Below, one piece after another: positions 18,601 to 63,686 of a stretch of DNA of 64,000 nucleotides. The notes below the pieces were generated by a model. That model saw only the letters and a list, made by a program, of their open reading frames with translations. It did no database searches and was not told the DNA's origin. Each line of letters begins with the position of its first letter. Positions within the stretch are counted from its first letter, which is position 1. The translations under genes and the position numbers were made by a program. This DNA comes from Sphaerolaimus hirsutus (taxonomy: Eukaryota; Nematoda; Chromadorea; Monhysterida; Sphaerolaimidae), in NCBI GenBank assembly GCA_964036195.1, contig OZ038460.1:13829504-13893503 (forward strand). The letters are read 5' to 3'.

Positions 18601-20264
18601 GCAGAATCGAGTGGACACCCTTTCAAAAAAGAATTTGGAGGAGACAAAGTATTCGATGAGCAGTGGCAAAAATCTATCCACGTTGGTATAGAAAAAATCT
18701 CACTATGGTTTCTTTTTCTGAAGTGCGCTGCGATGCGGGTGCGCCTTGGTATTATAAAGCGGCGTTTACACGGATTTGCTGTGACGACAAAAAACGAAAT
18801 TTTTATAACTGTTCTTGTGCAATCAACGTGAAATATATTACATGTGTGATACCTCAATTGATCGTGATTGTGCCAGCTTCACTGCCTGGGGCATACATCA
18901 AATTCCATAATTTCCCTAATCACGCACACTAGATCACACTTTTTTCATGTTGTCGTAGCTTTGTCGGAGGGTTTGTTCTACGCGGCCTCAAAAATACATT
19001 ATCTGTTGTGCATTATTGCAGAATCTATAAAAATTAAATATTGTTCCATGCAATGGGGTCGATCAAATAATGATCAATTGAGGCGTCCAATCTCTATACT
19101 TATTGGTTTTCACCCAAAAACATGGTTGACAAAATCACAATTTTTGTCGTCACAAAGAATCCGTGTAAACACCGCCTAACAAAAAACATATTTTGGTCAG
19201 TGATGGTATTTCATGTTGAATAATTGCTCGTTGTTTTTGTCGATCCGTAAATTGGCATACATTTTTGCATTTGTACAATTACACATTTCTAGGGAGATAG
19301 ATAATCTGGATAAAGATAACAATATTGTACCTATTTCTTTCATGTCTGTGATCCCGCGTGTTGTATAGGCTTGTTTTTAGTTGCGTTACGATTTTGGCGT
19401 TTCTTTTATTTTTAGATGAATATGTTTTCAAGACATTCTCGTGAATTCGGCGACCGGCGTCAATAAAATAAATATTAAAAAATACATTGATGGGATAATT
19501 GATGTGGGTATTAGCTTTGTTTGGTTTTGAAGCCTTTTTCTAGTATATCACTAATTACCTTAACAATACTCATAAATAATTACCAGTTGAAGAAGCTTAA
19601 GAAGTACCAAATATGGGTAAATTATCACAGATATCCGCGGTGTGCCATTGAGTTCAGTTCAGTGTTTCTCATTTACAGTCTGAGTCTGATCGCGCCGGGC
19701 CACCGATTGGGCAAGTCGAGCGACAGGCCCGTGTTCTCGTCCGTTCTCTCCCTGGGGGCAGTCCCAGACCCTGTAAAGTGCCCTGGAAAATTTCAAATGT
19801 CATGCAAGGTGTCAAAAGTCATGTAAAGTGCCCTGGAAAATGTAAAATGTCATGCAAGTTGTCAAACGTCATGTAAAATGCCCTGCAATTTGGCAACTCG
19901 GTTTTACAAAACTCCCGTCATGCATTTTACATTTTCAATAACAGCCATTTTCCTTGGCATTTTCCATGACTTTAACCACTCTGTTTGCCATTTGACATTT
20001 TCCAGTCCATTTTACAGCGTCCGGGACTGGCACCGGGTGCGCAGCCGGCCTCCCAAAGTGCCGCCGCGCAACCAGTTGCCGCCGTTGGGCAGCTGCAAGT
20101 CGCCGGCCCACTTCTGCCGCGTCGAGCCGCCGGCGCCCACGCCGATCCCGGTCAGGCTGCTCGCTCTGTTGGAGAGCGGCCGCAGCGAAGTGGGCACTGC
20201 CAGGCGCGTGTTGTATAGTTGGTTGGAGGAGCTGTCGCTGCCGCGCAGTCTGCGTTATTTGTAA
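6653..20264 (+). CDS. Multi-exon gene for an unrecognised multi-pass membrane protein
   Basis: Start ATG at 6653. Supported exons are 6653-6770, 7367-7509, 13876-14056, about 14423-14706, 15508-15568, 16006-16273, 17376-17564, 17899-18095, 18605-18681, 19679 to about 19738, and about 20018-20264 ending in TAA. All junctions are phase-consistent except 14706 to 15508, where an exon is probably missing, and the last junction, which falls in an inserted element. The N-terminal half is polar and Ser/Thr/Pro/Gln-rich. The middle has at least four hydrophobic segments: one ending exon 16006 (ALLGLAMIIVSSMGL), a Cys-rich pair in exon 17376 and a long one in exon 17899 (AAAIFSVVAGAGVLVCGLV). The tail is basic and Pro-rich, ending LEELSLPRSLRYL. 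High G/C at third positions supports the frames. I do not recognise the family; function is unknown. Confidence 0.55.
7641..7940. mobile_element. hAT-like element, TAGAGGTGGCAAGCGAT termini
   Basis: Termini are TAGAGGTGGCAAGCGA and TTTTTCCAACCCCA, with an 8-bp duplication AGGCCAAT/AGCCCAAT (one mismatch). The interior carries AAGCGATTTTT-type motifs. It lies in the intron after the second exon of the membrane gene and is related to 26048-27639. Confidence 0.65.
9241..9782. mobile_element. hAT-like element, TAGGGTTCAAACG termini, TCGGGA array core
   Basis: Termini are TAGGGTTCAAACGGG and CCCGTTTGAACCCTA with a perfect 8-bp duplication CTCCCACC (9233-9240 and 9783-9790). TCGGGATCGGGATCGGG arrays occupy 9265-9425 and 9612-9770. 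Both arrays point the same way although the ends are inverted. A unique middle of about 180 bp separates them. The long open frames here (RDRDRD and similar) come only from the repeat unit. Confidence 0.9.
10023..10550. repeat. Near-perfect 528-bp palindrome
   Basis: Arms of about 258 bp (10023-10280 and 10293-10550) pair almost perfectly around the loop ATTGCAAGCAAA. ATTTCACGTCA occurs repeatedly in both arms. The transcript would form one long hairpin. It lies within the composite element at 8747-10870, in an intron of the membrane gene. Confidence 0.85.
11111..11648. mobile_element. hAT-like element, TAGGGTGGCA terminus, CGGTACGGTA array core
   Basis: The left end is TAGGGTGGCAAACGGTACGG and the right end TACGGTAAATTCTGCCACC. 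The 8-bp flank is GTTGACGT/GTTGACGC. Motifs GGTACGGTAA and GGTAAA recur on both sides of the middle in the same orientation. A truncated relative is at 34015. Confidence 0.7.
12071..12802. mobile_element. hAT-like element, CAGGGTTGGC terminus, AAAATAAAAT core
   Basis: Termini CAGGGTTGGCAAAAT and AAAACCAACCCTG are flanked by a perfect 8-bp duplication CTTATGAA (12063-12070 and 12803-12810). The core is AAAATAAAATAAAA and TTTTTGTAAAATT repeats. Positions about 12306-12440 contain a partial copy (CTGGGGGCAGTCCCAAGCAT) of the introner-like family described at 41150. Confidence 0.85.
12962..13080. mobile_element. Truncated hAT-like element
   Basis: It begins TAGGGTTGGAAAAAAATCA and continues with AAAAATCAATTT repeats like 17217-17336 and 26048-27639. 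No matching right end was found. Confidence 0.45.
13529..13729. repeat. Inverted-repeat element, TATACTCGGCGGA family
   Basis: The right end reads GTCCGCCGAGTATAC and the left a degenerate AAACTCGGCGGCT. The interior around 13660-13710 is the reverse complement of the start of 48841-49047, so these are two copies of one family. Another copy is at 40594-40873. Confidence 0.5.
14848..14950. repeat. Small palindromic MITE
   Basis: TTTTTGAAAGCATTTGAGTT at the left pairs with CTCAAATGTGTTCAAAA at the right around TGTCAACTACTATTGAC. A second copy is in a chondroitin synthase intron at 39917-40013; 31126-31320 is a longer relative. Confidence 0.55.
15684..15920. repeat. Inverted-repeat element in membrane-gene intron
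   Basis: GCTCCACACAC at the left pairs with GTGTGTGGAGC at the right, and internal stretches such as GTTTTTTGGCAAAGTATGAA and TTCTATTAGAAGA also pair. The flanking exons are 15508-15568 and 16006-16273. Confidence 0.6.
17217..17336. mobile_element. Short hAT-like element, TAGGGTTGGC terminus
   Basis: A 120-bp element with ends TAGGGTTGGCACTTGAT and TTTTTCCAACCCTG; flanks ACCCAAAT/TCCCAAAC match at 6 of 8. It lies just upstream of the exon beginning at 17376. Confidence 0.6.
18130..18366. repeat. Inverted-repeat element, CACACTAGTTGACA family
   Basis: The left end ACTAGTTGACACAAGTGTG and the right end GTGTCAACTAGTGTGTGGGC pair, with inner pairing of CGGCTTCACGTG and CACTTGAAGTCG. Copies are at 31880-32092 and 43051-43213. 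Confidence 0.6.
19752..20036. mobile_element. Introner-like palindromic element, copy A
   Basis: The left end CTGGGGGCAGTCCCAGACCC and right end GGGACTGGCACCGG belong to inverted arms rich in AAAATGTCATG motifs. The left arm contains a GTAAAG donor-like site and the right arm a CATTTTACAG acceptor-like site. It sits between the last two exons of the membrane gene. Outside the element the reading frame continues in register (TCC before, GTG after). The real splice pair is uncertain; GTCCGT at 19739 with the acceptor ending at 20017 keeps frame. Confidence 0.7.
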
Positions 20265-39258: not shown

Positions 39259-42200
39259 ATGCCGCGCCGGCAGCAAGCCGGGCGCTACGCCGGCGGCGCG
39301 TCGTCAAAGTCCAAGTCGGGCGCCGGTGGACGCGGCCTCCTGTCGCCTAATGGCCACCACCAGCACAGATTGTACAGGTTGGCTAGCATGTTGGCGCGAT
39401 TGTGGCGCCGTTTTAGGGCTGCGCCAGGCCCCAAGGATGTCACGAAACCGTGCGTCACAACCCGGTACCAGATTATTTTTAACTCGGAACCGAAATTTGA
39501 ACATTTTGGAAGCGTTAGAACCGAACCGGAACCGAAACTCAGAACCGGAACTGATAACCGGAACCGAGAACCTATACCCGAACCGAAATCTTTTGGAACC
39601 GAATATCGAGAACTGTAACCGAAGACATTGAAATTCCCAACCCGGCCATAAATACATACAATTCCAACCAACCGTTCCCTCCCAGACTGTGCCAGTACGT
39701 CGCGCGACGGCCCGCGCTCGCCCTGTTCGTGTTCGGCGCTCTGTCGGGCATCGTGTTCAGTCTCGGCGTGCAGCTGGCGTCGCCGTGCGTCCAGGCGCAC
39801 CCCCGAAGCGCCCAGTGCACCTGGTGCCACAGTGCGGGCAGACCCGTCAAATTGGTCAAGCCGAATGAGGCACTCACTAAGAGGTTGGTTGTGTTGACTC
39901 GATCCGTGTTCGAGCTGTTTTGAAAGCATACGAGTTTGCGAGAATCAGACTGTCAACTACCGTTGACAGCTGTAAAAATAATTCATTCGGGTAAACTCAA
40001 GTGTGTTCAAAACAGATTTTCAGCCTTTCGAACAATTTGTTTGACTGCAAATATTTTAATGGATTATATTTCCCAAAGACGAGTTTTCCAAATTTTGACG
40101 GTGTGGGGTACTTGTGTGCGTGGCCATATTGTATCATGCCCACCAATCACAATGTGTTGGAATGAAGGGAAAGTCGTCGGTAACTTGTTGATATTTCGTT
40201 ATGCAGTTGTCATTGATTTCATTATGCAATCCCACACACTTTGTCTTACCCTATGCTATACTTAGTAATTAGTTAGATTATTAGATGTCTTGCCCTATGC
40301 ATTTCACTCTTTCAGGTGGCGCCGATCGACCATGTACGGCAGCGTGGGCGACTCGGGCACGTTGTTCAACGGCAGGCCCTCCAACCCGCAGCCCATTCAT
40401 TTCACCGGACGCGTCGCAGTCGGCGACGTCTACAAGAGCGACATCATGGGCGAGCGGCCGACGTGGGGCGGCGGCTTGCAGCTGCCCCAGAAGAGGAGTC
40501 TCATATTGGTGGGCGTCATGACGGCGCAGAAGTACGTGGACAGTCGCGCGTGGAATGTGTGGAGGACGTGGGCGCAGCAGGTGCGTGATATTGGTATACT
40601 CGGCGAACCGCAAAGTATGCGCCCAAAGCTATTTATGTCTTGGTCGATAACGCGCGAGCTAGATACTTATGTAATTATTTATGTATTAAAATATTAAAGG
40701 AAAAAGAAAAGGAAAATTAAAAAGAAAAAGGCGGAGTCGCGTACAAACGGAATGTTTTTTCACGCCATTTTAATTTATTTTTTTGCTGGGATTAATTTTT
40801 TTTATAAATGATGACGTCATGATGGAGTGTTTCCTTCAGAAAAATGCATAGCATGCGGTCCGCCGAGTATACTTGAATTGATTGTGTTGACGTCACAAAT
40901 GAGCATCGTTCACGCTAGTTCAGATCCCCGGCGAGGTGTTCGTGTTCGTGTCCGAGCAGACGGAAGTGCGCCCTGAGCACACTCTAGAGCTGCCGGTGAT
41001 CCGGCTGGCCGGCGTCGACGACAGCTACCCGCCGCAGAAGAAGTCGTTCGTCATGATGCGCGTCATGGCCGACTACGGCCTGGGCCGCTTCGACTGGTTC
41101 CTGCGCGCCGACGACGACCTCTACGTGCGCGCCGACAAACTGGAAGCCTTGGTGCCACTCCCAGACCCTGTAAAGAGCCCTGTAAAATGTAAAATGTCCT
41201 GCAAAGTGTCTAAAGTCATGGAAAATTCCCTGCAAAATGGCAAACGAGTTGCCATTTTGCAGGGCATTTTCCATGACTTTTGACACTTTGCATGACATTT
41301 GACATTTTACAGGGCTCTATACAGGGTTCGGGAGTGCCCCCAGCTCCGTTCGCTCGACCCCGCCGCGCCGCGCTACATCGGCCAGGCGGGGCTGGGCGCC
41401 GGCGCCGAGTACGGCATGCTGTCGCTGGCGCACAACGAGAACTACTGCATGGGCGGGCCGGGCGTCATACTGAGCAGCGCGGCGATGGCGCAGTTGAAGC
41501 CACACCTGGCCGACTGCCTGGCCAACATGTACACCACGCACGAGGACGTCGAGGTCGGCCGGTGCGTCAGGCGCACGCTCGGCGTGCCCTGCACTTGGAG
41601 TTACGAGGTTGGTGCGGCTATTGGTTAAGCGCTCTTTGAACATTCGAATTTCTATGGTAGTGAAGTGACTGATAACTGTAATCTGTATGTCTTATCCCAC
41701 CTGAATATGGGCAATTTTGTCACAACCCGCAACTCCCCATTATGCTCACACATTCTCATTACACTCATTCCAAGGGGGGATATCTCTAGGGAGAGTTTAT
41801 TCGTGGAAATACGGCATAATAACACATCTACGTTTGGCAAGTTACCGGTCTGTTAATTCTCGCGCGAATGAACGATTCAGATACGCGTTCATTTTCAAAC
41901 GTAGCCGTAAGTCCTCCGTTGCTGTGTTCATGCAATCCACATTCTCATCTGTGGGAAAACTCGGCAAAAAAGATGTCATCGTTCGGAATAAATATGATGA
42001 ACTGCGATTTTTCCTCTAGTCTGGCAAACCGACAGTGTTTTCATTTGTATGAACGGTGCACGGCCTTGATAATATTTTTTTGCCGCATCTGCGATTTGCG
42101 CATTTGTGTAAATAAGTGCAGATTCTTTTTGCTGTGTGAGTTGCAAACGTAAATATGTTACTCCGCATGGCGAATGTTTGCATGCCAAAATTTCGTATCT

Positions 42201-45200
42201 GATTAACTTGAATACTGATCTTGTTGTGTGTTTTTTGAGATCGAACGTATTTATTTACATCGATGTATTCAATTGATTTCGGCTTTTCTGCCAAATTTAC
42301 CACATTTTAAGGCTATTTCAAACAAATATTGGGTTTGAAAAAGGGAGGTAAAATGTATTTAGGTAGTCTGTACAAAGGATTAGCACACTCGATGAAGCAA
42401 TTGCGCAGTTGTTTTGCCTTTTGCAAGGCAAAAAAAAACATTAGATGTAATATTGCCGAAAATTTATGTTTCGCTTTGACGTGCAAATTAGCATGAAAAT
42501 CAAGAAAATGGTCGTCTGCATTCACATTGGTCACTGCCGCTGGGGCGACATAAATTTCTGAACATAATGGCGTAAAAATAGATAAGCTGAGCGCCACCTG
42601 CAATTTGCTAAGGTGATTCAAACGCATTCAAGCTCAAATGTCAAGTTTCGCCGGCCAAGAATCACCTGCACAAAGATCGTGTTCAGTTTTGTGTAGGTTG
42701 GCCGTGGGCGTGACACCAATTGAAGTGTAAACATTTTGCATTCATAAATATTTTGTCTCGCAAAAATGTCTGCGAAATGGCGGCATGACTGTGATTCGGT
42801 CCAGTGCCATTTATGCAAGATTCAAGGTGTTAAAATACCCGTCACAAAATAAATATTCACAATTTTAACCAATGGCGTATTTGACCTTGGCACATTTATA
42901 TCTTTAAATTGCTCATTAAAGGTTTTGTTTGACTAAGAAAATGGAAATAATCCTCCCGTAATCGTATGCGTTCACGGCCGTATGGAATGTGTTTGATTTG
43001 TGTAATTGCTGCAATGTGTGAATGTGGACGGAAGGAATGGATGGGATATAGGGCCCACACACGCTAGTTGACATCGACACCAAATGTCAACTGGTGCCGA
43101 TCCCGATCCAAAGCTTGCTGACGAATGGACGAACGACATTCAAACGCAATCTTTGAATTAGGAACGGAACCAGTTGACATTTGGTGTCGATGTCAACCAG
43201 CGTGTGTGGGGCCAGCGGGAAACGTCACGGAATTCGGGGCCAAAAATCTGATGAAAAAAAGCCGCAATTAGAAAAAATTAATAAGATTTAACGCTGCTCG
43301 CAGATGCAGAACATCTTCTACCAGAACCGGTCGTCGGCGGGCGCGTTCGCGGGCGACTTGAACGTGGCCGAGGTGCACACGGCCACCACGCTGCACCCGC
43401 TCAAGGAGCCGGCGGTTCGTTGTACTGCCAGTGTTAATTTTTGCTGCACGTCGACCGGTTTAAGTTTCGGATTCCGCTTTAAGTTTCTGCTCACTTGAAA
43501 TTTGCAACTGATTCTCACTTGACAGCAGACTCACCGCAAAAGTTGACGAGGGTGTAGCGGCCGTAATGAAAACCCGGCCGTAATGAAAGCCTGGACGTAA
43601 TGTATGCCCACCCGGCCGTAATGAAAGCCTGGCCGTAATGTAGGGGATGCTACATTCCGGCCGGGCTTTCATTACGACCGGGTAGGCATACATTACAGCC
43701 AGGCTTTCATTACGGCCGGGTTTTCATTACGGCGAAGCCCCCGCCAAAGTTGACAGTGGATGTCCAAAACATTTATGAATTTTGAAATGAAGCTTGCCTG
43801 AAATTGGCCCCTTGAAGGGGTGTGGATATCAATCGAATTAGCTGTCGAATCAGCATTCCAATTACATCACCAACTTTATTCTCCCCAACACCCAGGTGAT
43901 GATGCGCGTGCACTCGTTCATCCGCGGCCAGAAAACAGCCGACGCCCGTTTCCGCGTGGTGCAGCTGGCCCGCGACCTGCTCATGTCCAGTGAGCAACTG
44001 GAGCTGCTCGGCCATGCGCCCAATGAGGATGAACTGTTCAAGTGTTTGTTTAATTTAATTAATCTTCTGTGTTTACTCGAGTGACTTTACACCTTGCACG
44101 CGTGGTTCACGCTTCCACCGTGCCAATGATTTTTAAAATAATAACATATTTCATTAAAAAGTTGAATAAATAATCGCTGTTATATCGCCATACGTTAATT
44201 TGTTCACAACAATGATTTTTAATTTTTTACAAAAAAGCCATGCTTAAATTGTTATTGGCACGCTTCCAATGTGGGACATAAATAACTGCGCGTGCAGAGT
44301 ATCAAGTCCACCGTCTTACAATCGTGACTTCCCTTTGATGGTGCGCCTTATGTAACGCAGACGGCAACCTTGGAAAGATGCCAAGTATGCGCAAGTATGA
44401 ACCGCGCAGCACGGCCGACCTGCTCGTGTGGGACTATTTTTCTGGCTCTCCAAACATTCTGTTTTGCAGCAAGGCGCTCAACTGCCCTCGACACAATGTG
44501 GAGCACCACTGGAAGTACGCAATGAACGGCGCTGTCAGACAGGTTATCCCGGACCCTGTAAAATGTCAATTGTCATGCAAGTGTCAAAAGTTATGTACCT
44601 AAAATGCCCTGTGAAATGTTAAATTTTATTCCCTTCAGTTGACGTCTGACATTTTTCATAACATTTTACATCACTTTTGACACTTTGATAACATTTGACA
44701 TTTTACAGGGGGAGTTTACAGGGTTCGGGATTGACACCAGTAGTGCAGTCAAATCTGTAATTTACCTGCTTATTGTTGGACAATTAGGTTTAGGGTCTTT
44801 CAGACCGGTACAGGAGTCAACTGGTTAATTTATTGTGTCCGTTGTGACGAAGACATTGAATTGGATTGTAGCTTAAAAATAGGACGTGGGATGTGTAAAA
44901 ACATTAAAAACATTAAATTAATTAAAACATTATTTACATTAAACGTATTTGAGGTATATTGTGTTGCTCATATACCCCAAAATAGAACATCAATAACCGG
45001 AAGTGATTGTTACACAAGGAATATTACACGCACAACAATACTACATCATTGCGCATGCGCACACACATCCACTATTATGCAGATGTTCGACTATTTCAAT
45101 CGCAACGCTCGTTCGCGGGGGCGACTTTTGAGCTTCGAACGCGTCCAATACGGCTACATGCGCGTCGACCCGCTGCACGGCGTCGATTACATACTCGATC

Positions 45201-48200
45201 TGGTGCTCTTGTTCAAAAAGTTCAAGGTTAAATCTCCACTTTGAATGTTTTTTATCCCGGGTTACTCTAGATTTTGACTTTCCGTCGGGTTGGATAGATC
45301 GATAGCAAATCGCTCCAGATTGGTAGATAGCTGTCCCATGGGGGGGGGGGTGTTCAGGGAAAGTAGCTAGGGATGGCCAAAAAAAGGTTTTTTTCAACGA
45401 CAGTTTTTTTTAAATAATAAAACCGTTTTTTTCTTCAAAAAAGGGTTTAACCGTTTTTTTTCAAAAGCTCCCAGATATGGCCATGAGTCAACATATAAAC
45501 AGGTGAATAAGACAGGTGACAGTACTTTGTGATGTTATATATATAGCCATATAATGGCTGTGGAGTCATGGGATAGCATTATAAATGGTGAGTTCTGTCT
45601 AAAATATCCATTTTACGTCGACTTATTATGTATATGGCCTTTTGTCGAACGTCCATGATTTCAAGTGAAGTTGGTCATGGAAAAGTCCTTAAATAAGGTT
45701 ATAAGAGCAGGCTAACACATTGCCAGTAGTGTTTCACACTGTGCAAGTATGTCGGGGCACATTGGGTGTATATATATACTAGGGTTCAAACGGGACCGGT
45801 TTTTCGGACCGGGACCGGGCATGGCCTTTTTCAATTGTCGGGACCGGGACCGGGACTGGGGTGTCGGGACCGGGACCGGGACCGCCCAGTCCCGACTTTT
45901 TGCCGAACCATGTACCGGGACCGCGGTCCCGTTTGAACCCTAATATATACTACACTAGCATATCGTGGCTTATTATGACACAATAGCACAAACAAATGGA
46001 AGCTTTTACACTAAAAGTGCCGCAAAACCAATGAAAACAACCACAAATAGTCATGTGCATGTGAAATTGCGCACTTGTGCGCAAAAAATTGCAAAATACC
46101 TAGTGCTTAGTACTAAAAATTTTGGTCAAGGTTAAAAAAACGGTTTCGATGGGTTTTTTTTTAATAAAACGTTTTTTATTATAAAAAAAACCTTGGCCAT
46201 CCCTAATAGTAGCCAAAAAGCATTGCCTCTGGGATAGATAGATGCTGGGCGTTTTGAATGGGTGGGGTTACCCCCCACCCCCTATCCCATCCCTGTTACC
46301 ATCGCCAAACCACCAAAACCGAATGTTTTGCAGGGTCGTCGCGCGACAATCTCCGTGCGCCGGCACGCGTACGCGCAGCAGGCGTTCGCCCCAGCCGAGC
46401 TAGCCACCGAGCGGCAGTGGCGCCGCGTGGAGCGACTGGCCCAGCTGCACCACGGCGGCAATGCGACCGCGCAGAATAGCTTCCTGGTGGATCAGGTGCT
46501 GGAAGAACAGGAGCAGGATGAACAGGTGCTTGCCGCGGCTACTGTGCACTTTGTGCTGCCGCTGGCTGCTAGGTTGAACACTTTCCGGTTGGTGTGCTTT
46601 AGTGTGGATATTTGTGTGTAAACATGGGGTTTTAGATTTGCACATTTAGAAAAGGATTTTCAACGGTAGTTCCATTAGTCGACGGGTGTATTGTTATTTA
46701 TGTGTCAACGATCGATTTACATGCGTAGCAGTTGTTTGTGTCACGATATTTTGCTTCGCATCTATGCTTTTGCATATGCAAATAAGGTACAAGCTTCTAT
46801 GCTACCTCACAGCTCTTGTATTATGCTATTATACCTGCGTGAGTCTCGCAGGCGTTTCATGGACAACTTCGAAGATGTGTGTTTGTTGCCCAAATCGGGC
46901 GGCGGCACGGCCGCAGTGCTCACCGTGGTGCTGTTCCACTCGAATTCCAGCGCAGACGACACTGCTATCCGGTGGGTTTCGTGTGGCGTCATTGTCAATT
47001 GTGTTTGGTAGACATTTGTGTCAAGTAGTTTTTATCAAATACCGGGTTTGCTTGAATAATTCCTCCCATTGCTGGACGATTGAGGGAAAAATGATCCCAC
47101 CTTAAAAAATCCCCCGATAATGCATAGAACCAAATTGTTTCGTCCAATTGGAACTAAAAATGGGATGTTATTTAGCTAATAAAGCATATTTCGTGAGATG
47201 ACTTGATAGAAACATTCTTGAAAATTTTGAAAATAATTCCCCCATAGAATAGTTAGTTCCTCCATTAAAAAAGTCTGAAGAATAAAAATTCCCCTGGGGA
47301 ATTATTCGAGCAAATATACTAGAACCTCAACTGTCACATTCCTTCCCCTAAACAGCGCAACCAACCACTCAGGTCCATTCTGCTACAGTACGCGCGCAAG
47401 TACGGCAACGACGTGATCCGCTGGGTGCAGATGGACGCGGGGCAGCCGTTCAGCCGCGGCTTGGCGCTCGCCGAGGGCGCCCGTTCTGCCGCCGCGCGCG
47501 CAGAAGACCCGCTGCTGTTTTTTACGGATGTGGACATTGTTTTCGACGCTGACGCGTTGTACAGAATCAGGATGAACACGGTCAAGGGCAGATCTGTGTA
47601 CTATCCGGTGGTGTTCAGCGAGTTCGCGCCGCACACTTGGCATGGTTTGCTCGATAGCTACTTTGGTCCTAGATTATTTTTGGATAAAGGATTAATTGCT
47701 GCCAGTTTGCACCGCAGCTACACATAAATACCTAGATTAGTTCGTGTAGCCATCTACGTTGATATGTCGAAATGTATCCTGTTTTATCACGTTTATTACC
47801 AGTTTTGGGTATGAAAAAGCCTATCTTTATTACGATGCGTCTCGAAAATTTCTGGGGAAATAATAAACCCCCTCGAATAAGCCCCCTTCGAATAAGCCCC
47901 CCTCGAATAAGCCCCCCTCAAAATTTTCACTCATCTCCAAAAATGTCAAAATCTGCTCAGACGAAAACGCCGTGCCCGACCGGCCATCCCTAGACCCTTC
48001 AGCGCCAGGCGGCACGTGGCGCCAGCACTTGGGCAGGTGGGACACGCGCCGCGGCTACTTCAGGCACTTCGGCTACGGCATAGCTGGCATACACTACAGT
48101 GACTTGGTTTCTGTGGGTGGATTGAACACGGATATTAGGGGCTGGGGATTGGAGGATGTTGATTTGTTTGACAAGTGTCTTAAAAGGAGACCCCGGTTGA

Positions 48201-48703
48201 GAATTGTCAGGGCGGTGGATCCCTCGCTGGTTTGTTTGGCTTGTTTTGTGTTTTTGTTTGTTTTATAAATTTGTGAGTGATGGGTTGAAGCTAGTTTGTT
48301 TGCTATCAATTATTGAGCATCTAGCAATTTTTATAATTTTTTATTATGTCAAATATGACCATCCATATCGGAAACGTAGGCATGTAGCTGGTGATGAATA
48401 TGGAATATCTTTTTTAGTGTTTTTTTCTCTCTCAAAAATCAACATGAAAATGGTTGAAAAAATCGAATAGTTACGTCGAAATAAATCAATTTTACAACAA
48501 TAGTTGTAACTATTCACAATTCTCCACCAATCCCTTCGCAGGTGCACGTGTACCACCGCGTCCACTGCGACAGGAACTCGCTGCCCGACGCCCAGTACAA
48601 GATGTGCGTGGGCTCGCAGGCGGCCAGCTACGCGGCCACCCCCTGGCTGGCCGAACATTTCCTCCAGTTGATTCGAAGCCAGTCGCCCGTCGGCGCGGCG
48701 TGA
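39259..48703 (+). CDS. CHSY1: Chondroitin sulfate synthase, complete, 14 exons
   Basis: This Golgi type II membrane enzyme extends chondroitin by adding alternating GlcA and GalNAc. Exons: 39259-39377, 39686-39883, 40316-40580, 40924-41151, 41344-41607, 43304-43414, 43896-44043, 44361-44542, 45083-45226, 46334-46587, 46852-46971, 47373-47644, 47961-48229, 48542-48703 (TGA). All phases agree; the sum is 2,736 nt, 911 residues, somewhat longer than human CHSY1. A membrane anchor lies near residues 49-69 ([15 protein letters not shown]). The N-terminal transferase domain has [23 protein letters not shown] and RADDDLY (Asp 257-259), then NYCMGGPG and [13 protein letters not shown]. The C-terminal domain has [19 protein letters not shown] (DVD 730-732) and [10 protein letters not shown]. 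Both metal-binding motifs are intact, so it should be bifunctional. The end of exon 7 and the start codon are the least certain points. Introns carry many mobile elements, one of which is an entire intron. Confidence 0.95.
39459..39640. repeat. GAACCGGAACCG-rich element in chondroitin synthase intron 1
   Basis: GAACCGAAACC and GGAACCG words recur in one orientation. It resembles the hAT-like array cores, but clean ends were not found. Confidence 0.4.
39917..40013. repeat. Small palindromic MITE in intron 2
   Basis: GTTTTGAAAGCATACGAGTTT pairs, in trimmed form, with AAACTCAAGTGTGTTCAAAAC around TGTCAACTACCGTTGACA. Same family as 14848-14950. Confidence 0.55.
40594..40873. repeat. Inverted-repeat element, GTATACTCGGCGGA family, intron 3
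   Basis: GTATACTCGGCGAACCGC at the left and GCGGTCCGCCGAGTATAC at the right are inverted copies. It begins 13 bp after the donor of exon 3. Confidence 0.65.
41150..41343. mobile_element. Introner-like palindromic element, copy B: equals intron 4
   Basis: Arms 41150-41244 and 41249-41343 are inverted copies with termini TTGGTGCCACTCCCAGACCC and GGTTCGGGAGTGCCCCCAG. The donor GT is at 41152-41153 and the acceptor AG at 41342-41343, so the 192-bp intron is the element apart from two or three bases. Removing it joins LEAL to LRSL with no residue lost relative to the chondroitin synthase family. Words such as AAAATGTCCTGCAAAGTG fill the arms. Confidence 0.9.
43051..43213. repeat. Inverted-repeat element, CACACTAGTTGACA family, intron 5
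   Basis: GGCCCACACACGCTAGTTGAC and GTCAACCAGCGTGTGTGGGGCC pair in trimmed form; the interior pairs through ATCGACACCAAATGTCAACTGG in trimmed form. Confidence 0.65.
43557..43734. repeat. Palindrome built of GGCCGTAATGAAA units, intron 6
   Basis: Tandem units GGCCGTAATGAAAACCC, GGCCGTAATGAAAGCCTGG and GACGTAATGTATGCCC run to a centre near GGGGATGCTACATTCC, then repeat in inverted order and orientation. Confidence 0.75.
44073..44312. mobile_element. Copy of the 245-bp element, intron 7
   Basis: TACTCGAGTGACTTTACACC, GTGCCAATGATTTT, GGCACGCTTCCAATGTG and GAGTATCAAGTCC occur in the same order as in 38239-38483. Confidence 0.6.
44540..44740. mobile_element. Introner-like palindromic element, copy C: starts at the exon 8 donor
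   Basis: The left end CAGGTTATCCCGGACCCTG contains the donor CAG|GT of exon 8 (GT at 44543). The right end is GGGTTCGGGATTGACACCAG. The intron continues to 45082, so only the donor side is the element. Arms carry AAAATGTCA and AAAGTTATG words. Confidence 0.75.
45368..46205. mobile_element. hAT-like element, TAGGGATGGCC terminus, AAACCGTTTTT core, intron 9
   Basis: Termini TAGGGATGGCCAAAAAAAGG and CCTTGGCCATCCCTA; flanks AAAGTAGC/ATAGTAGC (one mismatch). It contains the younger insertion 45780-45942 and itself interrupts a GATAGATAGCTG repeat (45270-46290). Confidence 0.8.
45780..45942. mobile_element. hAT-like element, TAGGGTTCAAACG termini, GGGACC core, nested
   Basis: Termini TAGGGTTCAAACGGGACC and GGTCCCGTTTGAACCCTA, perfect 8-bp duplication ATATATAC (45772-45779 and 45943-45950). 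The core is CGGGACCGGGACCGGGAC. Confidence 0.9.
47040..47325. repeat. CCTCCC / ATTCGAG-family element, intron 11
   Basis: Ends resemble GAATAATTCC and GGAATTATTCGAGCAAATA. AATTCCCC and AAATCCCCC words recur. A related fragment is at 47850-47930 in intron 12 (CCTCGAATAAGCCCCC repeats). Confidence 0.45.
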
Positions 48704-50229: not shown

Positions 50230-50851
50230 CTACTTATGCCTGGCCCTGTGGCTGTGGTCGTGGTGCCCCGCCGCGGAATGGTTGTTGTGCCGTTTGTTGT
50301 CGTCGCCGCGTACTGAGGGACGAATTTTAAGTGCGCTAATTATCATCAATTTCACTTGGTTTTGTCAATTGGCTCGGTTTCCAGTCACATTCACAATTGC
50401 GAAGGTGCCCTGGGGCGACTGACCTAGTCTCCACACGTTGAAGGGCACCTTGGGCGGGTCGTCCATGTGTGAAAGGAGGCAGCACTGCGTCCACGTGCTG
50501 CGAGACGCCAGACGTTGCTTATGCTTTGTTCTACGCGGCGCTGCTGGCGCAGATATCTCCTGGTGGCAGCCTCAGACCCTTCAACGTGCCCTGTAAAATG
50601 TCAAATGTCATGCCAAGTGTCAAAAGTCATGGAAAATTTCCTGCAAACTGGCGACTCGGTTGCCATTTTGCAGGGCATTTCACATGACTTTTGACACTGT
50701 CTGACATTTCACATTTTACAGGGTCTGGGATTGCCCCCTGGGCGTACTCACATGCACAGCACGTAGATCACCAGCATGAAGGCGACCAGGGAGGCGGGCG
50801 CGCCCAAGTAGTCGTACCAGTTTAAAGTTTGGATGATCATGACAATTGGCG
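50230..50851 (-). CDS. 3' exons of an unrecognised small membrane protein
   Basis: Minus-strand exons 50851-50752, 50497-50424 and 50312-50230 join in phase to a TAG stop. Donors are GTGAGT and GTCAGT; the last two acceptors are CTCGCAG and CCCTCAG. The first exon reads PIVMIIQTLNWYDYLGAP and a hydrophobic segment SLVAFMLVIYVLC, followed by TWTQCCLLSHMDDPPKVPF and a polar His-rich tail NNHSAAGHHDHSHRARHK. It is therefore the last membrane segment and cytosolic tail of a membrane protein whose start lies to the right. Upstream exons were not found before the gap at 51632. The weak acceptor of the first listed exon leaves its start uncertain. The family is not recognised. The intron 50498-50751 is mostly an introner-like element. 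Confidence 0.55.
50560..50741. mobile_element. Introner-like palindromic element, copy D
   Basis: Ends CTGGTGGCAGCCTCAGACCC and GGGTCTGGGATTGCCCCCTGG; arms contain ACATTTTACAGGG and its complement. It fills 182 of the 254 bp of the intron 50498-50751 of the minus-strand gene and begins 9 bp after that intron's GTGAGT donor end. Confidence 0.8.
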
Positions 50852-51149
50852 CTGGTTTTCAGTGGTCCAGTTGCTATTTATTTGCACCGCCAGTGGTCAG
50901 ACATCAGCTTTTATTAAGTATTCAGTTTTATTTCTCAGTCATTCAAGTGGCGATTTTGGATTGAGTTTGCCCTTGTTCCCTTACTTCAGTTGTTATTATG
51001 GAATGTGGAATGCGATTGCGCGTTCGTCGGCCGGATTTGTAAAATGCGTTTACATTGACTTTTTTGTTATTTAGTAAGCATGCAAACTGACGCAGTCGGA
51101 GGGATATTGCCGGTTTTTAGCAGAGTTGTTAGAATTACTGAACTTTTTT

Positions 51150-51631
51150 AAAAGTATATGTAAAGTCGTTTGGTCAGAGAATTTATATCTAGCACAGGAA
51201 TGCTGCCACTTAACAAACAATTCGAGGGTCTATGGACATATGAAAGGTCTAATGCTAAGTCCGCCATTGACCTTTGCTTCATGGATGGAGAGCTGGCATT
51301 GACAAAGGGGAAAATTGATGAATATGGGGAACTAAGTACCTTGCAATCGGATCATAATGCTATTGTCATTACCATGGACCATGTAACGCCGCTGGAGGTC
51401 ATAACATCCAGAACTTTACGGCCAAAATCAAACAAGGAAGAAGTACAGTTTCAGAATAAACTGCGTGGCAAACAAGTCAGGACATATGCTGATATAGTAT
51501 CAGTGATTGGGCAAGCTGCGACAGTTAGCGTAAATAACGTTTATACAAATAAAGTTCCAAAATTTATACAAAAACAGGGCAGGGCAATAGCCAAATTACG
51601 CCGAAAAGTGAAAACATGCACTGATGTGACT
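51150..51631 (+). pseudogene. LINE ORF2 fragment, end of endonuclease domain
   Basis: The frame from 51170 reads MLPLNKQFEGLWTYE, then SAIDLCFMDGEL and LSTLQSDHNAIVITM. GLWT, S.IDLCF and SDHN are the C-terminal motifs of the apurinic-type endonuclease of non-LTR retrotransposons; SDH carries a catalytic His. The fragment has no start and runs into the gap, so it is 5'-truncated and its reverse transcriptase is not visible. Confidence 0.75.
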
Positions 51632-54044: not shown

Positions 54045-57000
54045 TCAAACGCCTGTGATACTCTCATCACTCCTGTGGTAGCAGATCGTCGGCGTCTTCG
54101 ACGCCGGCATTTTCCCGGCCCTCCTCATGATGCTCGTCCATGGGTTCGACGGCATCCTCCTCAGGCTGGCTACCTTCCCCGTGTCCGGGCGCCTGGTCTT
54201 CTGGGGCCCCCGCTGGTCGTCCCGGCCAGTTGGGGAGCTTCTCAGATTCCTCGGCGAGCCTCTCGAAGGCTTGTCGGAGCGCGTCGGTCTCGTCGACGAT
54301 CGCCCTCGACGGCTCGGTGGGCTGCCATTGCTCCGATGCTGCAAGCGGTTGGCTTGATAGCAAGGGGACATGGGAGGTTGTGAATGAGGTCGTACACTGT
54401 GAAGTGATTGAGTTGAATTGGTCAAATGGTACGGTGGGGGATCTAGTTCTTGATCGTGACTTTCTTCCATCTCTCCGAGCTCTATGTCGGACTGTGAAGG
54501 TGTTTGTCTGAGGAAGGTCACTGATCTTTTTAGATCGTTTAACTTTTGATTTGACCAGTTTTTGATTGATGTTATTGAATTTGTGAAAAGTTTGGGGTAT
54601 AAAGGAAAATGTTTTGTGTGACAATTTCTGCTCACCTGGGAGCCCTGCGACTCCAGCGAATCTCTTGAGTCGCTTTTGCAAGGGCTCGCGGTCAGGGATC
54701 GCGTCTTCCATTGTGACTTCCGTTGTGACAGGCTCGGTGACTGTGAGTCTGGCGTTTGGTGACGAGCTCTGCGGTTGTGACTCGCAGGAGGGTGCAGGTT
54801 TTGTGACCCGGCGCGCCCCCGTCTCCATTTCGATTTCTTCGGCGCGTTCGGTACTATAACCGATCGGGGGATCCGATCTAGGCTGTACCGTGCGTCCTGA
54901 AAGCCGTTTGAATGGAGAAACTCGTTTGAGGGGTGTGACAAACTTTGAAGGTAACTGTGACGAACTTGACGATTGTGACGATTGTGTGACAATTTGGTTT
55001 GACAAAGCGGGTTTGTTGAAACCGCTTGCCGGCTTCTTCTGGCGGTTACGTCGCCGTCGCTTACCGATTTTTCCTTGTTGAACGGGCGGGGGCCCCTGTT
55101 GTTTGGGCTTCTGTCCCTTCTGCCCTTTCTTCGGAAAAAGCCCTTGATGTCTGGCAGCATACCCCTGCCGGTTACGAGCCGCCACTGCATGTAAACATAA
55201 CCAATATACCCAATACAGGCGATTGTGAGAATAATGAGTATAATGTTCACAGCTGTTTGAAGTGGCCCAGTAAGTAACGTATCTAATGCAGACGCACCAC
55301 CTGTGACACTACCGTGAATGATGTGACCCAATTCTTTTCCTACACCTTCAAAATATGCACCAACCCCTTGGCCGATGCCAGCAATATATGCTTGCACTGC
55401 TTTAGGATCGTTGGATTTTGTTGCAATATAATCGACTGAACGTGTGACTTGTTGTTCGAGTCGTTGCAAATTTTGAAAGTGATGATGTGCAGCCATGATA
55501 CTGAATGCAATGTCAGTCATGCTTACACCTGGTGACCCGGAAACATTTAGTGTGAATGGTTTCCACGAGCCAGCCCAAATTAATTCGATTGGGAGTTTTG
55601 TGACGTGTAAATTCGTTGGTCCATTTTCGTTGGCCCATGAATTATCATTTAATTGATAATATTTGTGATCTTTCATGAGACAATGATCTATTGGTGAATG
55701 TGTGATCAGATCATTGGTGCCAGGAGCAACGAACATAATATGTGGGTGATTTGTGACCTTGACCGGCAGAAATTTATAACATGTATTGTTATATTCATGT
55801 TGAAAATAAATAATTTCTGCTGTGACTGGTTTACAATCCCAGAACATTAATATATCTCCATGCCATTCAGCATAGAGATTTTGACGTCCTAGCAATGCTC
55901 GTAAGCCAAGTGTGGGATTGAATGTGACAATTGCATGAATTATATCTAGTTGGGTCTGACGGATGTGACATAATTGTTGCCAGATAGATCCAAATTGTTT
56001 TTGTTCTAGATGTGCAATTTTGTCAACTTCGTATTGTTGACGGGCTGTGAGCAAGTGAAACACACCAACATCAAGATTTGGTGCGAGTTTGAAATGAAGA
56101 GGAGCTTTTTCGGTTGGAGGCTTTTTCAATTTCTTGAGTTGATATCGAAGAAATTGAATGAATGCCGAGCCCTGGTCAATATATTTTGCGTCTTTTGGCA
56201 CGCATTCTGCATTATTTGGGAATTGTTGTGATCTCCATGTAACAAAAAATGCAGCTTGCAATTTTTCCACTATGTAATGATTTTGTGAATATTGCGCATC
56301 AAATTGACCAATCTCTTGGAATGCGCACTGCTTGTTAAACGCGGTAGCATTCCATAAAGAGACGCCATTGTCGCTGTCATAACAATAGCCGGCTTGTGGG
56401 TTGCAATGTGATAGATCTTGAATTTCGGAAACTATTTTCTTTCCGTCAAGACTTGCGACCACACCTTCCTCTATGTGAAAGTTTATTACTGTGTTACTCA
56501 GGTTGTGACAAAAGTAACAATAATCGATGTGAAGTGATTTGTTAGTGCTCCACAATGCATGACCGATTTTTATTAAAGGTTCGCCTTTCCAAGTTTTATT
56601 TTGGTAGGCGATCATGCAATCGTAGGTTGTGACTCTGTGGTTTTTAATGATTTCTGGTGGTAGCATAGCTTTTCCGCCCACCAGGCTCATATACGTGACT
56701 ATAGTATGCTCTTGTTGAAAGCATCTATAAATTGGTGTCGTTTGCGGCTGAACACGCAACGTCCATATGGATACCACAATATCCTCTATGGCTGTAACTT
56801 GAGGAAAGTGACATGTTACTTTTTCCGGAAGTTGAATTGCGTGACCAGTGCGTGTTTTATGGCACAGATTGAAAGTTTTGTGATATTGATCTGTCCATGT
56901 GAGCGCGTTGGCTAATTTTGATTGTATTAGCAACGAGAGCGCCATTAAATGCGACACGTTTCCCCAGAACGAATATGTGCCAGTGTAGCGACATGTTCGA

Positions 57001-60000
57001 CGTGGGTTTCGACGTCTTGCATCTTGCTGTGAAGATTGTGATTGTTGATGTGATTGATCAGTTTGTGAATCGTCCCCCTTATCAGGTGGAGGTTGTGAAT
57101 TATCATCATCTTTTACCTCAGTGTCGATTTTATATTCAACACCGTCCTCTGTGTCGATTTCAAGAGGCACTAGGTTAGATGGGGATCTACGTGTGCGACG
57201 GCCGTTACTTGATAATACTGTGACTGCACGTATTTTGCCATCGCTTGACACGTGTATTTCGTGAACGCGGCCCATTTGCCACATGCCGCGTGGTTGTTTA
57301 TCATCTGTGATTAACACCACTTGGCCACGTTTGGGAGCTTCGTTGATTGTGCCTCTTTTCAAGCGTTGATTTTTAGCTCGATCTTTGAGTAGGTCAATGT
57401 ATTGACGTGACCACTTGTACCAAAGCACTTCCCGATTGTGACGAATTTGGTCCCAAAGTAATGTGATGTCATCTCTGTCCTTTTCAGGCACAGAATTGAG
57501 TGCAATTTCGTCGATGCAGTTGACGTCATTGACACGTGGGGGTGTGAGTGTGTAGGTTTTTTCGATTTGTGAGGGTGTGAGGTTGAAAGATCCATCCGTC
57601 ATTTTTTCCCATTCCTCTTTTGGAATTTTTCGCATGGGTTCAATCGTGGTGGAATCGAGTTCCAACTCACGTTTTTCATCCATGTAACATGGTGGTGGGG
57701 TGCCCCAAAGAAAATGTATTGGGCGCAGTATCGCTGCCCCAATGTCTGTGTTTGACAAGTATGACAATGGTCGCGTATTGACGGAGAATTCGACGTCAAG
57801 CATGACTGTGAGAAATTCATGCCATGTGAGACAACGTCGTCCGCATGCTTTTTTGAGCAAGCGTTTGACCAATCCTACCATGCGTTCGTACACGCCGCCC
57901 TGCCAAGGACTATTGGCTGTGATAAAATGCCATTTTACGTCCGGTAGCGTTTTGACGCAATTTTTGAATGCTGGGGCATTGTCGGACCAAATTGTGTCCG
58001 GCATGCCTCGACGTGAAATAAAACGATTTAGAGCCATAACTGTGTCGGCTGTCGAGACACTATTGGTTGACTCTAAATGAATGGCGCGTGTACTGAAGCA
58101 TGTTAGCAACAAAATGTGTTGACTGTGACGGGTTCCGTTTTGTGAATAAACTAACGGTCCCATATAATCAATGCCAATGTGTTGAAATGGCTTGATTTGT
58201 GATTGAGTTCGAGTGACAGGTAATGTGTGAAAATCGGGTAATGTGAATGGACCTCCTTCCGCCTTGCGGCATGTGACACATTTTCGCAAAATTTTTGCAA
58301 CTACCTGCTTGGCGCTTGACAACCAGCAGTGTTCGCGTAAATCTGCTAAAGTGTGAAGCATGCCACTGTGACCAGCAAGCTCATGAAAATGAGTGACCAC
58401 TAGCGTTGTTAACCACCCGGTCTTTGGCAAGTAGTAAAACAACGAAGGGTTTCTGTGTTCTTTGTGAGATACACGCGTGACACAATATAATAAATTATTC
58501 CACGCGTCCCATTTGAGCATGTGGTGTTTGCCAAGTTGCGCTTGTGAAATGCAACTGGCACATTCCTCTGCCTGTGAAATGCGCAACACATGTCTAAATG
58601 CTTCGTTTAAATCAGCTTGTGTGATGGGTTTTGATAAATATTCGCTTTCGCGCTTTGCAGCCTTGTGCATGGAGCGATTTAGCCAATATGTTTTGACACG
58701 AAGCAGGTATACGACAGTACGCAACAATTTTGACAGTGTTGAAAATCGTCGAATGTCGATTTCGAATGGATTTGAAGGGATGTGACGTTGTCGACTTTCG
58801 ACAAACGGATTTTGAGGAGTGACATTTTGTGACAAATTGGGGTCCAAGTTGACTGGTACTTGCTGTGCAAGAGCATTAGCTGGTTGTGAATCAGGCTGTG
58901 AAATGGGCTGTGAGGTTACTGCTCCAGCGTATAAAAATCGACTGATGTGAATGTCGCCTTTCGCAAGTTCTTCAGTGACAGGTTGCGCTTGATATTGCGA
59001 AATGTCAAGCATGGTTGATGTGAGAGGTTCAGCTAAAAATGTGGGTCCAGTGAACCACATTGTTTCGATCATTAGTTGATCAAAAGTACAACCCCGCGAC
59101 GCGATGTCGGCTGGGTTGTCTTTTGTAGCAACCTTGCAAATTTGAATGCAATGTTTTGACATTAGTGAATGGATTTTTGTGACCCGATTGTTGACAAAAG
59201 TAGCCAGCGGCTTTGCTGTATACAGCCAGCCGATGACAACTGTACTATCGGTCCAGAGGAAATTACTGTGAATTTTCCATCCACCCAGCTCAACGAGTTC
59301 ATGATGTAAATAATCGATGAGCTGTGCACCAATTGTGACACCTAGCAATTCCAAGCGTGTGATTGTGAGGGGTTGACCTTGTTTTGACGGAAGTGGGGCT
59401 AGTTTTGTACGAGCTGTGAGGAAACCACTAAAATATCGGTCATCTTCATAACCATATTCGTCGGGTGAAATCGCTTGTTGACGCAAATAAGCACAAATGG
59501 CGTATCCATCTTTTGAGGCATCACAAAACACATGTAATTCTAATGGTCGTGTGACAGCTTTGACGTCGATGCCAAAAGAATGAAATGAGCGCGGGAATTT
59601 GATTTGACTTATGGACGAGAGATGTCGTTTCAAATCGTCCAGTAAGTCATCGGCCTCTGGGTCTTCGATGAGTTCATCCCAGGTTGTGATATTGCACCTT
59701 TGAATTATTTGTGACACGCGAAATTTCAACCGAAATAGCGCGGGTGCCGTGACGCCAATAGGATCGTACGTTGAAGCCAGCAATTTGTTTAAATTGCGGC
59801 GTGTGGCTGTGACAATGAGCGTGAAATCTTTTTTGGGAGCTGGCACTGCAATGGTGTCTTCAATGTGATCGTAAACGAGACCCATTACTTTGATGTATTG
59901 TGACTTTTTCGGGTTGAGGTCATCGGGTTTGATTTTTTCCGAGACCATAGGCGAATTTGTCATCCATTCGCGCATGTTGAAATTTGCTCTGGCAAAAACA

Positions 60001-63000
60001 GCTTTAATTAAACGATAGAGCTGTATTGCATATTTGTCATCATCTACGCTGATAACTAAATTATCAACGTAAATGCTGTTGAGCAACAGCTCCAGTTTCA
60101 TTCGTTCATTGGTTTCAGCGGGATGCATGTGAGCTAATTCCTCTTCTAGGTGATATTTGATGACAGTTGACAAAATGGATGGACTGCATGTGAGGCCAAA
60201 CAGCACCCTTGTGAATTGCATCATTTGAATATTGTCTTCATGTGACGGAATGGTGTCATCACGCAGCCAGTAAAATTTTGTGAAAGCGCGTGATTTTGGG
60301 TGAAGAGCAATTTGTAAAAATGCTTTTTCAATATCTGCTAATAACACCACTTTTCCGGCTCTGAAGCGAAGCATTAATCCGAGCGCCAGGGGTGTGAGAA
60401 CTGGGCCTCGAAATAAGCAATTATTGAGACTTGGCTTGCCTGCAGAACCATCATACACTATTCGACATGTTGTCGATCTGCCAGGTGTGAGGACAGGTTG
60501 GTGAGGTAAGATGTGTTCTTGCAAACCATCTTGTGAACCATAGACGGGTTCTATGACCCCCTTGTGAAGTTGATCTGAGATGACTTTCGCGTATGTAGCG
60601 AATAAATCGGGATCTTTTCGAAACCGTTTCAACAGTGACAGAAAGCGACGAAATGCTTCTGCATTGTTAGTTGGCAATTCTTGAATGGTTGATTTGAATG
60701 GCCAATCCACGCTATAGCGACCAGTTTCTGGATCAAGAGTAATTGATTCCAGAATTAACTGTTCAGCTATGTCGTCATCATGTGATAAGGGATCATCTGT
60801 GATACCTATTGACTCGAGACTGTGAAATTGAAATAATGTCTCTTGGCCAACAGCAACAGCTGATGAAGCATGTGAACTGCATGAAACCATGAATTGATGT
60901 GGGGAAATGTCGGGTGTTGTGACGAATGATTGTGAGGACGCATTTCCGCCTAACATCAACCCAAGTATTGATTTGACTATGATCAAGCCAGATGGGAGTT
61001 CGATTTCTGTTGGTCGAATATCGAACTTCCAATAATAGTCTTGACCAATGACTACATCTGGTTGACATAGTTTGTGACAAAACTCATCAGTCATTTCGGT
61101 CAATTCAAGCGGTTCCGCGAATTGTTCTTGTGCATGTTCACCGTACACAATATAAATGACTGTTTTGTCGTCTTGTGACAAAGGAGGTGGGCATGCATAT
61201 GTTGCCAAATTATCCACTGCACGTAAGGTGAGCGGAATTTGTAACATATTGCCCTTATTGTCGACGTGTTTGTAAATAGGCATGACAGCCTCGACCAAAA
61301 ACGTATTGACTGTGACGGGCGTTTTTGTCGCAAACACGTTCATTTGAAGAACAACATCTCCTTTGTTTTCAAAGTTATACTCATTTGCCACGGATGCTTT
61401 AATGTATGAATATTCGCATCCAGTGTCAAAGAATATTAACAAAGGGTCTGTGACTCGGTTTAATTCAGCGTCTTTATTAATTAATGAAGCCTGGGCCACT
61501 TGCAAACGAACAATAGGTGCAAAATCGAACTCACATTCTTGTTCGGCCTGCTGCCTGGTAGCGGGGTTGGGGTTACCGTAACCCGCCTGTGCGCTCAGCA
61601 CTTCCACCGTGGGCCTGTGACTAGGTTGAAGTGGCACCGACGATGACATTTGATTCGGGTTGAGGTGTGGGTACACCTCGTACCGTTTTTGTTGGAAGCC
61701 GCGGATTTTGGCCTCGACGGTCTCCATATCTGTGCCTTCCTGGATGAGGTTGGCACGGAGCGTCGTCCACAGCTCGTTTTCGCTGTGATATTTGCGGGCT
61801 TCCTCTTGAGCTTTCGCCTGTTGCGCGTTAGCGGGCCTCGGCCATTCACCCATGTCGAGCGGGCCGTCCATGTCCAGCTGGTACAGCGTGTTCTGTCTCC
61901 ACCGGAAATCGTTTTCATCCGGTGGGATGACACACACGCTCATAGGTTCCGTTTGTGAGGGCGGATACGATGGCGGTGCATGTGACGACGCCGCGCCCGT
62001 TGTGATTACCTGACGCCTAGCGGGTGCCTGTCTGGTAGGACAGAACGCCCCGTGATGCTGACCAATCTGGCGACAGTAGTAGCAACTCAATTGTTGAGTG
62101 CACTGTGCCGCTTGATGGCCTCTGCGCGTGCAGCGCGTGCACACATCGCCCAAAGCTCGCAACCGTTCCGTGCGCTCCCTCGGTGTGACGTATTGAGGGC
62201 AGTCGGTTGTGTAGTGCTCTTTGATGCCGCAGAACAAGCACTCGAATTTCGGCTTGCGATAGTCAGCAGCAGGTTGTGAGGGCTGCTTTTGACTCATCGC
62301 TCCGATCGCCGGAGTTCTGACGACTGTGAGTTCGGTGTCGCCGGTTACAGCGGTGCGCATCGAATTCCGGTGTTCTTCTGTGACGGCAAGAACAATATTA
62401 TCGGGAAGATAACCACGAATTATTCTTAACACTGCACCAGAATCGACACTTTCACCCCTTTCTTTAAGTTGATTGAGAGTTGACAAAAGGGTTCGTGTGA
62501 AATTTGTGAGAGAGTCTCCTCTTGACGAAGGTTTTTCAAGTGAATACAATTTATCCCACAGGGCTGCTTGTACCCGATGCGTTTCACCAAAATTTGATTG
62601 TAACATGGTGACCGCTGTGATGTAATCTCGACCATCACCTTTTAATCCGGCCAGCAGTTCTGCTGCTGGACCGGTAAGGCTGAGCTTGAGGTATGTATAT
62701 TTCATACCCATTGACAAATTAGCTTGGTCGTGAATTTGAGCTCGAAAAATCTCCCACCAAGCTGCCCATTCTAACGGATCACCGCTATATTTAGCAAGCT
62801 CGATTTTTGGTAACTTTAACAAAGTTTCCGGTTGTGAAGGTTGAGAACTACTTCCCATATTGTCATTGTTGTAAGGGGGTTGTGAAAGGGGTTGAGTAGT
62901 TAAATCAACAGTGGACTGACCTTTCAAGGAAAGTATCAACCTTTCCGCGGATTTGATGTGCGCTTGGGCGGACGCAATCCTCGATTCCAGCTCATCCATG

Positions 63001-63425: not shown

Positions 63426-63686
63426 AGCAAAGTTTGATCAATTTATTGCTTATTAGCAAAGTGGTAGCTAGCTGTGAACGAAATAAAATAATAAAAATAA
63501 ATATTTCGAATCTTGTGACTTGTACTTGTAAAATCGTAAGTATTTATGCACGCGCTACTAACGATTTTGCGTCCAAAACCGTATTACCGTAACCCCGTGC
63601 GTGTGACTCAGGCTGTGAAAAGCAATTTCCAATGAAATTTCGCGCGAGACGACTTAATTAGAGTGACCAATTAGTTTTAATTAGTC

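Follow-up and report, generated by a model that had tools for sequence, protein, structure and literature searches.

Genomic context and host gene model

The stretch of DNA analyzed here, a window of 64 kb, contains a chondroitin sulfate synthase gene that harbors two members of a family of short inverted-repeat elements, one of which coincides with an intron (Table 1). The gene model, once spliced, is open across 791 codons, and residues 52-780 of its product match human CHSY3 (chain 9q8z_B) with an E-value of 1.4e-183. Among 8000 scored candidates, 711 homologues were over the threshold, and the 120 listed ones were aligned. Seven of the 11 exon junctions, including that of the c3 intron and that at the donor of c4, are clean in all or all but one of the 120 listed homologues; the other four are less certain, because all 120 listed rows have indels there. 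In a scan for relatives of the gene, 17 stretches of genome_contigs and 40 of viral_contigs fitted a pattern, and confirmation was obtained for none of them.

The 11 donors in the model (40581-48230) read GTT eight times, GTG three times and GTA never. The introns of the gene also hold a palindrome at 43051-43213, clear of its junctions, which has AGTTGACA-like sequence in common with a palindrome at 18121-18367, and another at 43560-43733, composed of GGCCGTAATGAAAGCC-like units, which lies in the intron 43415-43895 and touches no junction.

Elsewhere in the window, a palindrome at 10015-10558 has arms of 271 nt that are 99% complementary and 2 nt apart, and is far longer than c3. An open frame of 3130 codons on the minus strand (54045-63437) presumably represents a polyprotein resembling those of BEL/Pao-type retroelements. 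Weak domain matches, all under the cut-off, were obtained for membrane-protein exons at 15994-18100 on the plus strand (Jiraiya, PF15038, E 0.0006), which show no obvious GT donor after about 17500, for an exon at 3951-4139 on the minus strand (TMEM230/134, PF05915, E 0.0002), and for positions 51164-51559 on the plus strand (endonuclease-reverse transcriptase domain, PF14529, E 0.0003).

Table 1. Host gene and element copies in the 64-kb window (a slash marks a splice junction; triplets are given left, then right)
Feature	Positions	Strand	Length (nt)	Description
Chondroitin sulfate synthase gene	40317-48703	+		12 exons, 11 introns; model built by eye, upstream first exon(s) outside the model
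c3, intron	41152-41343	+	192	GT...CAG intron in the chondroitin synthase gene (phase 0)
c3, element (inner limits)	41152-41340	+		Flanking triplets TTG (41149-41151) and CAG (41341-41343)
c2	19752-20033	-	282	Predicted donor CCG/GTGCCAGTCCC, predicted acceptor TGCCCCCAG/GGAG; triplets CTG and CGG; internal expansion
c0	176-449 (locus 173-449)	+	274	Candidate donor CAG/GTGCCAGTCCC, candidate acceptor CCCCAG/GACAC; triplets CAG and CAG
c4	44543-44740	+		Triplets CAG and CAG; the intron 44543-45082 (540 nt) has its donor, CAG/GTTATCCC, at the left end of the copy
c5	50560-50740	+		Triplets CTG and CTG; antisense to a putative minus-strand gene
c1	12310-12407	+		One-ended fragment with terminus CTGGGGGCAGTCCC; blastn match

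An intron composed of a palindromic element

The two arms of c3 (41150-41243 and 41249-41342) are 94 nt each, 90% complementary and separated by a spacer of 5 nt. The fold reaches a z-score of -18.25 as DNA and of -19.36 as RNA, with none of 200 shuffles equally stable in either case. The GT at 41152-41153 lies three bases inside the left terminus at 41149, and the CAG at 41341-41343 forms the end of the intron. Among GT...AG pairs with spacings of 186, 189, 192, 195 or 198 nt and starts at 41130-41174, 41152-41343 is the sole one present. Its excision gives DKLEAL/LRSLDP in phase 0, a junction with no indel within 5 residues in 119 of the 120 listed homologues. All 192 nt of the intron are element sequence, and the number of non-element nucleotides is zero. 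The c3 intron is made end to end of a palindromic element, its splicing being predicted from the sequence.

When c3 is left unspliced, the reading frame (ORF 40903-41283) runs into a stop within the element. This in-frame stop, together with the fact that splicing is predicted here from the DNA, would also suit a recent unspliced insertion that disrupts the gene, as an allele or in a pseudogene. We consider such an insertion very improbable: the 12 modelled exons are open across their whole length, exactly the sequence of the protein family is regained by the single GT...AG excision whose length fits, and additional copies abut splice sites.

The earlier note on this DNA had described palindromic halves at 41150..41343, an exact 192-nt intron with its GT three bases inside the left end and a final CAG as acceptor, and a LEAL-LRSL join without gain or loss; all of this was borne out. 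The terminus that it quoted, CTGGTGCCAGTCCC, is not the exact end of c3, which reads TTGGTGCCACTCCC, but occurs nine times in the window with up to two mismatches, as against 0.24 expected; some of these occurrences belong to the ends of other copies, and others are probably due to chance.

Other copies in the window

With c3 as query, blastn returned matches at 12310 (one end), 19752-20036, 44554-44740 and 50560-50723, and the ends of the copies were subsequently refined by eye. An nhmmer profile, for which nine half-elements were taken from c3 and its blastn loci, returned over the window its own nine halves and one internal repeat; it gave no new locus because it had been built from the halves that it later found. 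The copies recognized in the window comprise five with two ends (c0, c2, c3, c4 and c5) and one fragment (c1), which has no recognizable gene in its surroundings. Exact family strings were found neither in viral_contigs nor in genome_contigs, and a comparison with Rfam at the gathering threshold gave no match.

The copy c2 is probably a second exact intron, as predicted from the coding potential of its flanks. It shares family sequence with c3 as far as both splice sites and has a fold z-score of -7.25. The best frame has a coding log-odds of 49.8 on the upstream side (next best 12.3) and of 16.2 on the downstream side (next best -0.8), the downstream value being reached at 1.2% of 91,500 unmasked positions, and the two best frames join in phase across the copy (phases 2 and 1). 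A search for homologues of its host gene found none under the threshold.

The copy c0 was reported as a family member by neither blastn nor nhmmer. It has the same terminus and geometry and about 30 terminal nucleotides in common with the family, while its interior is unalignable. Its termini show 24 inverted-repeat identities over 34 positions, with 5e-5 of random pairs being as good; in a control by local alignment, 0.4% of random pairs score as well. The fold is weak (z -2.84). The downstream exon has a coding log-odds of 21.0, a value that 0.9% of positions reach, and the phases (1 and 2) fit. Because the upstream coding score is about zero, c0 is graded only as possibly a third exact intron.

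Two further copies are associated with splice sites in a different manner. The copy c4, which is of the GT type at both ends, starts at the homology-anchored donor VRQ/MFDYF, and the acceptor used lies at 45082, not at the right end of the element. The copy c5 lies in reverse orientation relative to its putative gene, for which a homologue search found none under the threshold. A GTGAGT, a probable donor, starts at 50751 (minus strand), and the triplet of c5 follows 11 nt later. As an exact intron c5 was ruled out, the highest-scoring coding frames to its left and right being out of phase. An open stretch at 50752-50858 (minus strand), ending TLNWYDYLGAPASLVAFMLVIYVLC, resembles the Pfam family Nlp36 weakly (E 0.0004), short of the curated cut-off.

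The five two-ended copies in 64 kb include one firm (c3), one probable (c2) and one possible (c0) exact intron. Only c3 has homology-anchored junctions at both of its ends, those of c2 and c0 being predicted from coding frames.

Flanking triplets and element ends

When the start of the element is set at GT or GGG, the triplets that flank the five two-ended loci agree in 12 of 15 letters, compared with at most 4 of 15 at ten other offsets. Three of the five pairs are perfect, that of c2 has one mismatch and that of c3 has two (Table 1). In random draws, an agreement of 12/15 came up at a rate of 3e-5 when the offset was fixed and of 2.4e-4 when the best of 11 offsets was taken. The left triplet is preceded by C in four of the five loci and the right one is followed by G in three, and the duplication can alternatively be read as one of 5 bp, C-CWG-G (19/25 letters); random draws matched this 0 times in 200,000, a control that looks better than it should because the G and C at the element ends are constant. 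A 5-bp duplication of this form is not reported for NuwaI in the available part of the description of that family (PMC4482050). A symmetric CTG...CAG insertion without duplication is less favored, as it would add a codon that is absent from the protein family.

Ends of the GGG type are present in c0, c1, c2, c3 and c5, the other ends being of the GTG type (GTT once). The element ends read CWG/GTG at the donor and CCC/CAG at the acceptor, and in c0, c2 and c3 the GT end is gene-upstream and the GGG end gene-downstream. Both copies in the chondroitin synthase gene (c3 and c4) begin at donors that are clean in 119 of the 120 listed homologues; two random placements in this gene would both start at donors in 2 cases per million. 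A random element of the length of c3 would start at a donor and end at an acceptor with a probability of 1.3e-4, a figure for which the target is the c3 pair itself.

This geometry bears on whether the element made the intron or entered it. An older intron at LEAL/LRSL could have been colonized by a MITE and then trimmed until the MITE alone was left, a history suggested by c4, with which a longer intron opens, by c5, which is near a probable donor, by the 11 modelled introns of the gene and by the imperfect triplets that flank c3. We regard this history as unlikely, given that no non-element nucleotide is retained in the c3 intron, that the same geometry occurs again at c2 and possibly at c0, and that the duplicated triplets lie exactly at the splice junctions. 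We infer that the insertion of c3 created its intron rather than colonized one.

Phylogenetic position of the host

An unrooted maximum-likelihood tree was constructed for the chondroitin synthase and 38 of its 120 listed homologues. The query together with a nematode clade of 20 rows (5 of them without a name) is separated from the other 18 rows with support of 100/100, and the 20 nematode rows are separated from the query and the remainder with support of 100/99. If the tree is rooted on the split between the vertebrates and the rest, those nematodes form the sister group of the query. Forcing the query into a group with 10 arthropod-side rows, five of which are named arthropods, lowers the log-likelihood by 90.4 units (p-AU 1.5e-95). 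The chondroitin synthase groups with nematodes; its branch is long and its composition odd, and long-branch attraction might have influenced this placement. The weak Nlp36 match does not prove a nematode host. The placement would be compatible with a nematomorph or with a nematode from outside the clade sampled.

The earlier note had proposed an intron-creating transposon in an arthropod. The transposon part of this proposal is well supported in the window, because there is a repeat family with CWG duplications, the ends coincide with splice sites at several places in the window, and the protein is restored exactly. The arthropod part was rejected by the tree and the AU test, with the caveat of long branches. 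An arthropod case would not have been a first in any event, because copepods are already named among the carriers of introners (PMC9860276, in the part available).

Comparison with known elements and introns

The closest likeness of the element ends is to NuwaI of the PHIS superfamily, described as restricted to animals, with a 5'-CWG-3' target-site duplication and TIRs of 12-61 bp that usually start with GGG; its autonomous copies carry a DDE transposase and a Myb/SANT ORF, and the reported hosts are fish, beetle, crustacean, mollusc and anthozoan (PMC4482050). The c3 family shares with NuwaI the CWG duplication (present here in 12 of 15 letters, as expected of NuwaI) and an animal host. In the TIRs the likeness is partial: GGG opens one TIR and GTG the other, and the inverted repeat of c3, at 94 nt, exceeds the range given for NuwaI. 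The elements of the c3 family are too short to encode a transposase themselves, and no transposase (DDE) or Myb/SANT ORF was detected among the 10 unassigned ORFs, of 73 listed, that were scanned against Pfam. A role of NuwaI in introns is not described in the available part of the source. A NuwaI-type transposase presumably moved the c3 family.

A link of Harbinger elements to new introns is not in itself new, because PIF/Harbinger (PHIS) sequence has been recognized within recently gained introns of fungi (PMC8476143). In contrast to the case presented here, those introns are fungal, and the available part of that report describes neither a CWG duplication nor splice sites flush with the element ends.

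Introners with TIRs and/or TSDs have been reported in algae, fungi, copepods and other eukaryotes (PMC9860276). As in the window, they are similar introns flush with the splice sites, with TIRs and TSDs in a part of the families; certain families bring one splice site along and obtain the other from the duplication, and most keep the length of the mRNA. The c3 family differs from those described in the available part of that survey by its CWG triplet duplication, its near full-length hairpin and its nematode-side host, the count of copies here being limited to the 64-kb window. Comparable in part is the copepod Eurytemora affinis, an invertebrate with many lineage-specific intron gains, whose idiosyncratic introns differ in host, in their non-canonical GA/GG donors and in that no element was identified (PMC5714493).

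The symmetry of c3 is reminiscent of the internally symmetrical sister stwintrons of Hypoxylaceae, in which the halves are inverted repeats, hairpins are predicted and insertion at new positions is seamless (PMC8469720). Symmetrical stwintrons of this fungal kind, with terminal inverted repeats of 45-55 nt, give some substance to the idea that c3 is an introner spread through an RNA intermediate by reverse splicing, its symmetry being a feature of the RNA. We find this quite improbable. The stwintrons are fungal, their repeats are about half as long as those of c3, and in the available part of the report they are functional on the coding strand only and no flanking duplications are reported, whereas in the window three of the five two-ended copies are flanked at either end by perfect CWG triplets and one copy is in the opposite orientation. 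On the same observations, identity of the family with symmetrical (stw)introns of the fungal type was rejected.

A literature search, with most subscription journals outside its scope, found no earlier report of an introner for a nematode-side host.

A model for intron creation by insertion

In our assessment, the 192-nt intron is probably a NuwaI-like palindromic non-autonomous MITE that inserted in an exon and is spliced out, that is, an introner. Insertion would duplicate a CWG triplet. The TIR that opens with GT directly after the left triplet would provide the 5' splice site; the other TIR would close in CCC, and the right copy of the triplet, if it is CAG, would provide the 3' splice site. 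With the donor in the TIR and the acceptor in the duplicated CAG, splicing would therefore restore the exact original target. The 94-bp stem may juxtapose both splice sites in the RNA, and we infer that c3 is spliced in this manner. With its CWG target, the family appears almost pre-adapted to this process: landing on CAG would make the donor CAG/G and the acceptor CCCCAG/, so that a single G-to-T change in one TIR would convert a palindromic transposon into a directional, scarless intron.

Several observations count against this model, among them the 5-bp reading of the duplication, the coding score of about zero upstream of c0 and the negative result for a transposase in the ORFs scanned. 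Moreover, the triplets of c3 represent an imperfect duplication, for which two changes after insertion at a CTG target have to be postulated. The original target may have been CTG, with TTG arising by a silent change; this is suggested because the homologues point to a codon for Leu or Phe (among the 120 listed homologues, the position preceding the junction has F 97 times, L 21 times, I once and a gap once, and never Q). A CTG target would not immediately supply the AG acceptor of c3; the present CAG would have needed one mutation, or a different acceptor may have served first. Finally, c4 and c5 are examples of copies located in larger introns.

Implications

The same intron-making process may operate genome-wide. 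We give about even odds to the idea that a family of NuwaI-like MITEs is at present an active source of new spliceosomal introns in this animal, a nematode or an ally of the nematodes. The origin of new introns is a long-standing question. A 2022 survey of intron change in nematodes discusses, in the part available, that the sequences from which introns were gained have escaped identification (PMC9169325). The c3 family suggests a concrete source together with a rule, namely a CWG target, a GT-bearing TIR and a duplicated CAG as acceptor. It also suggests a reason why certain groups of transposons turn into introners and others do not. If active seeding is true, this nematode-side lineage would be a place to watch the birth of introns, the sources of which were previously unfound.
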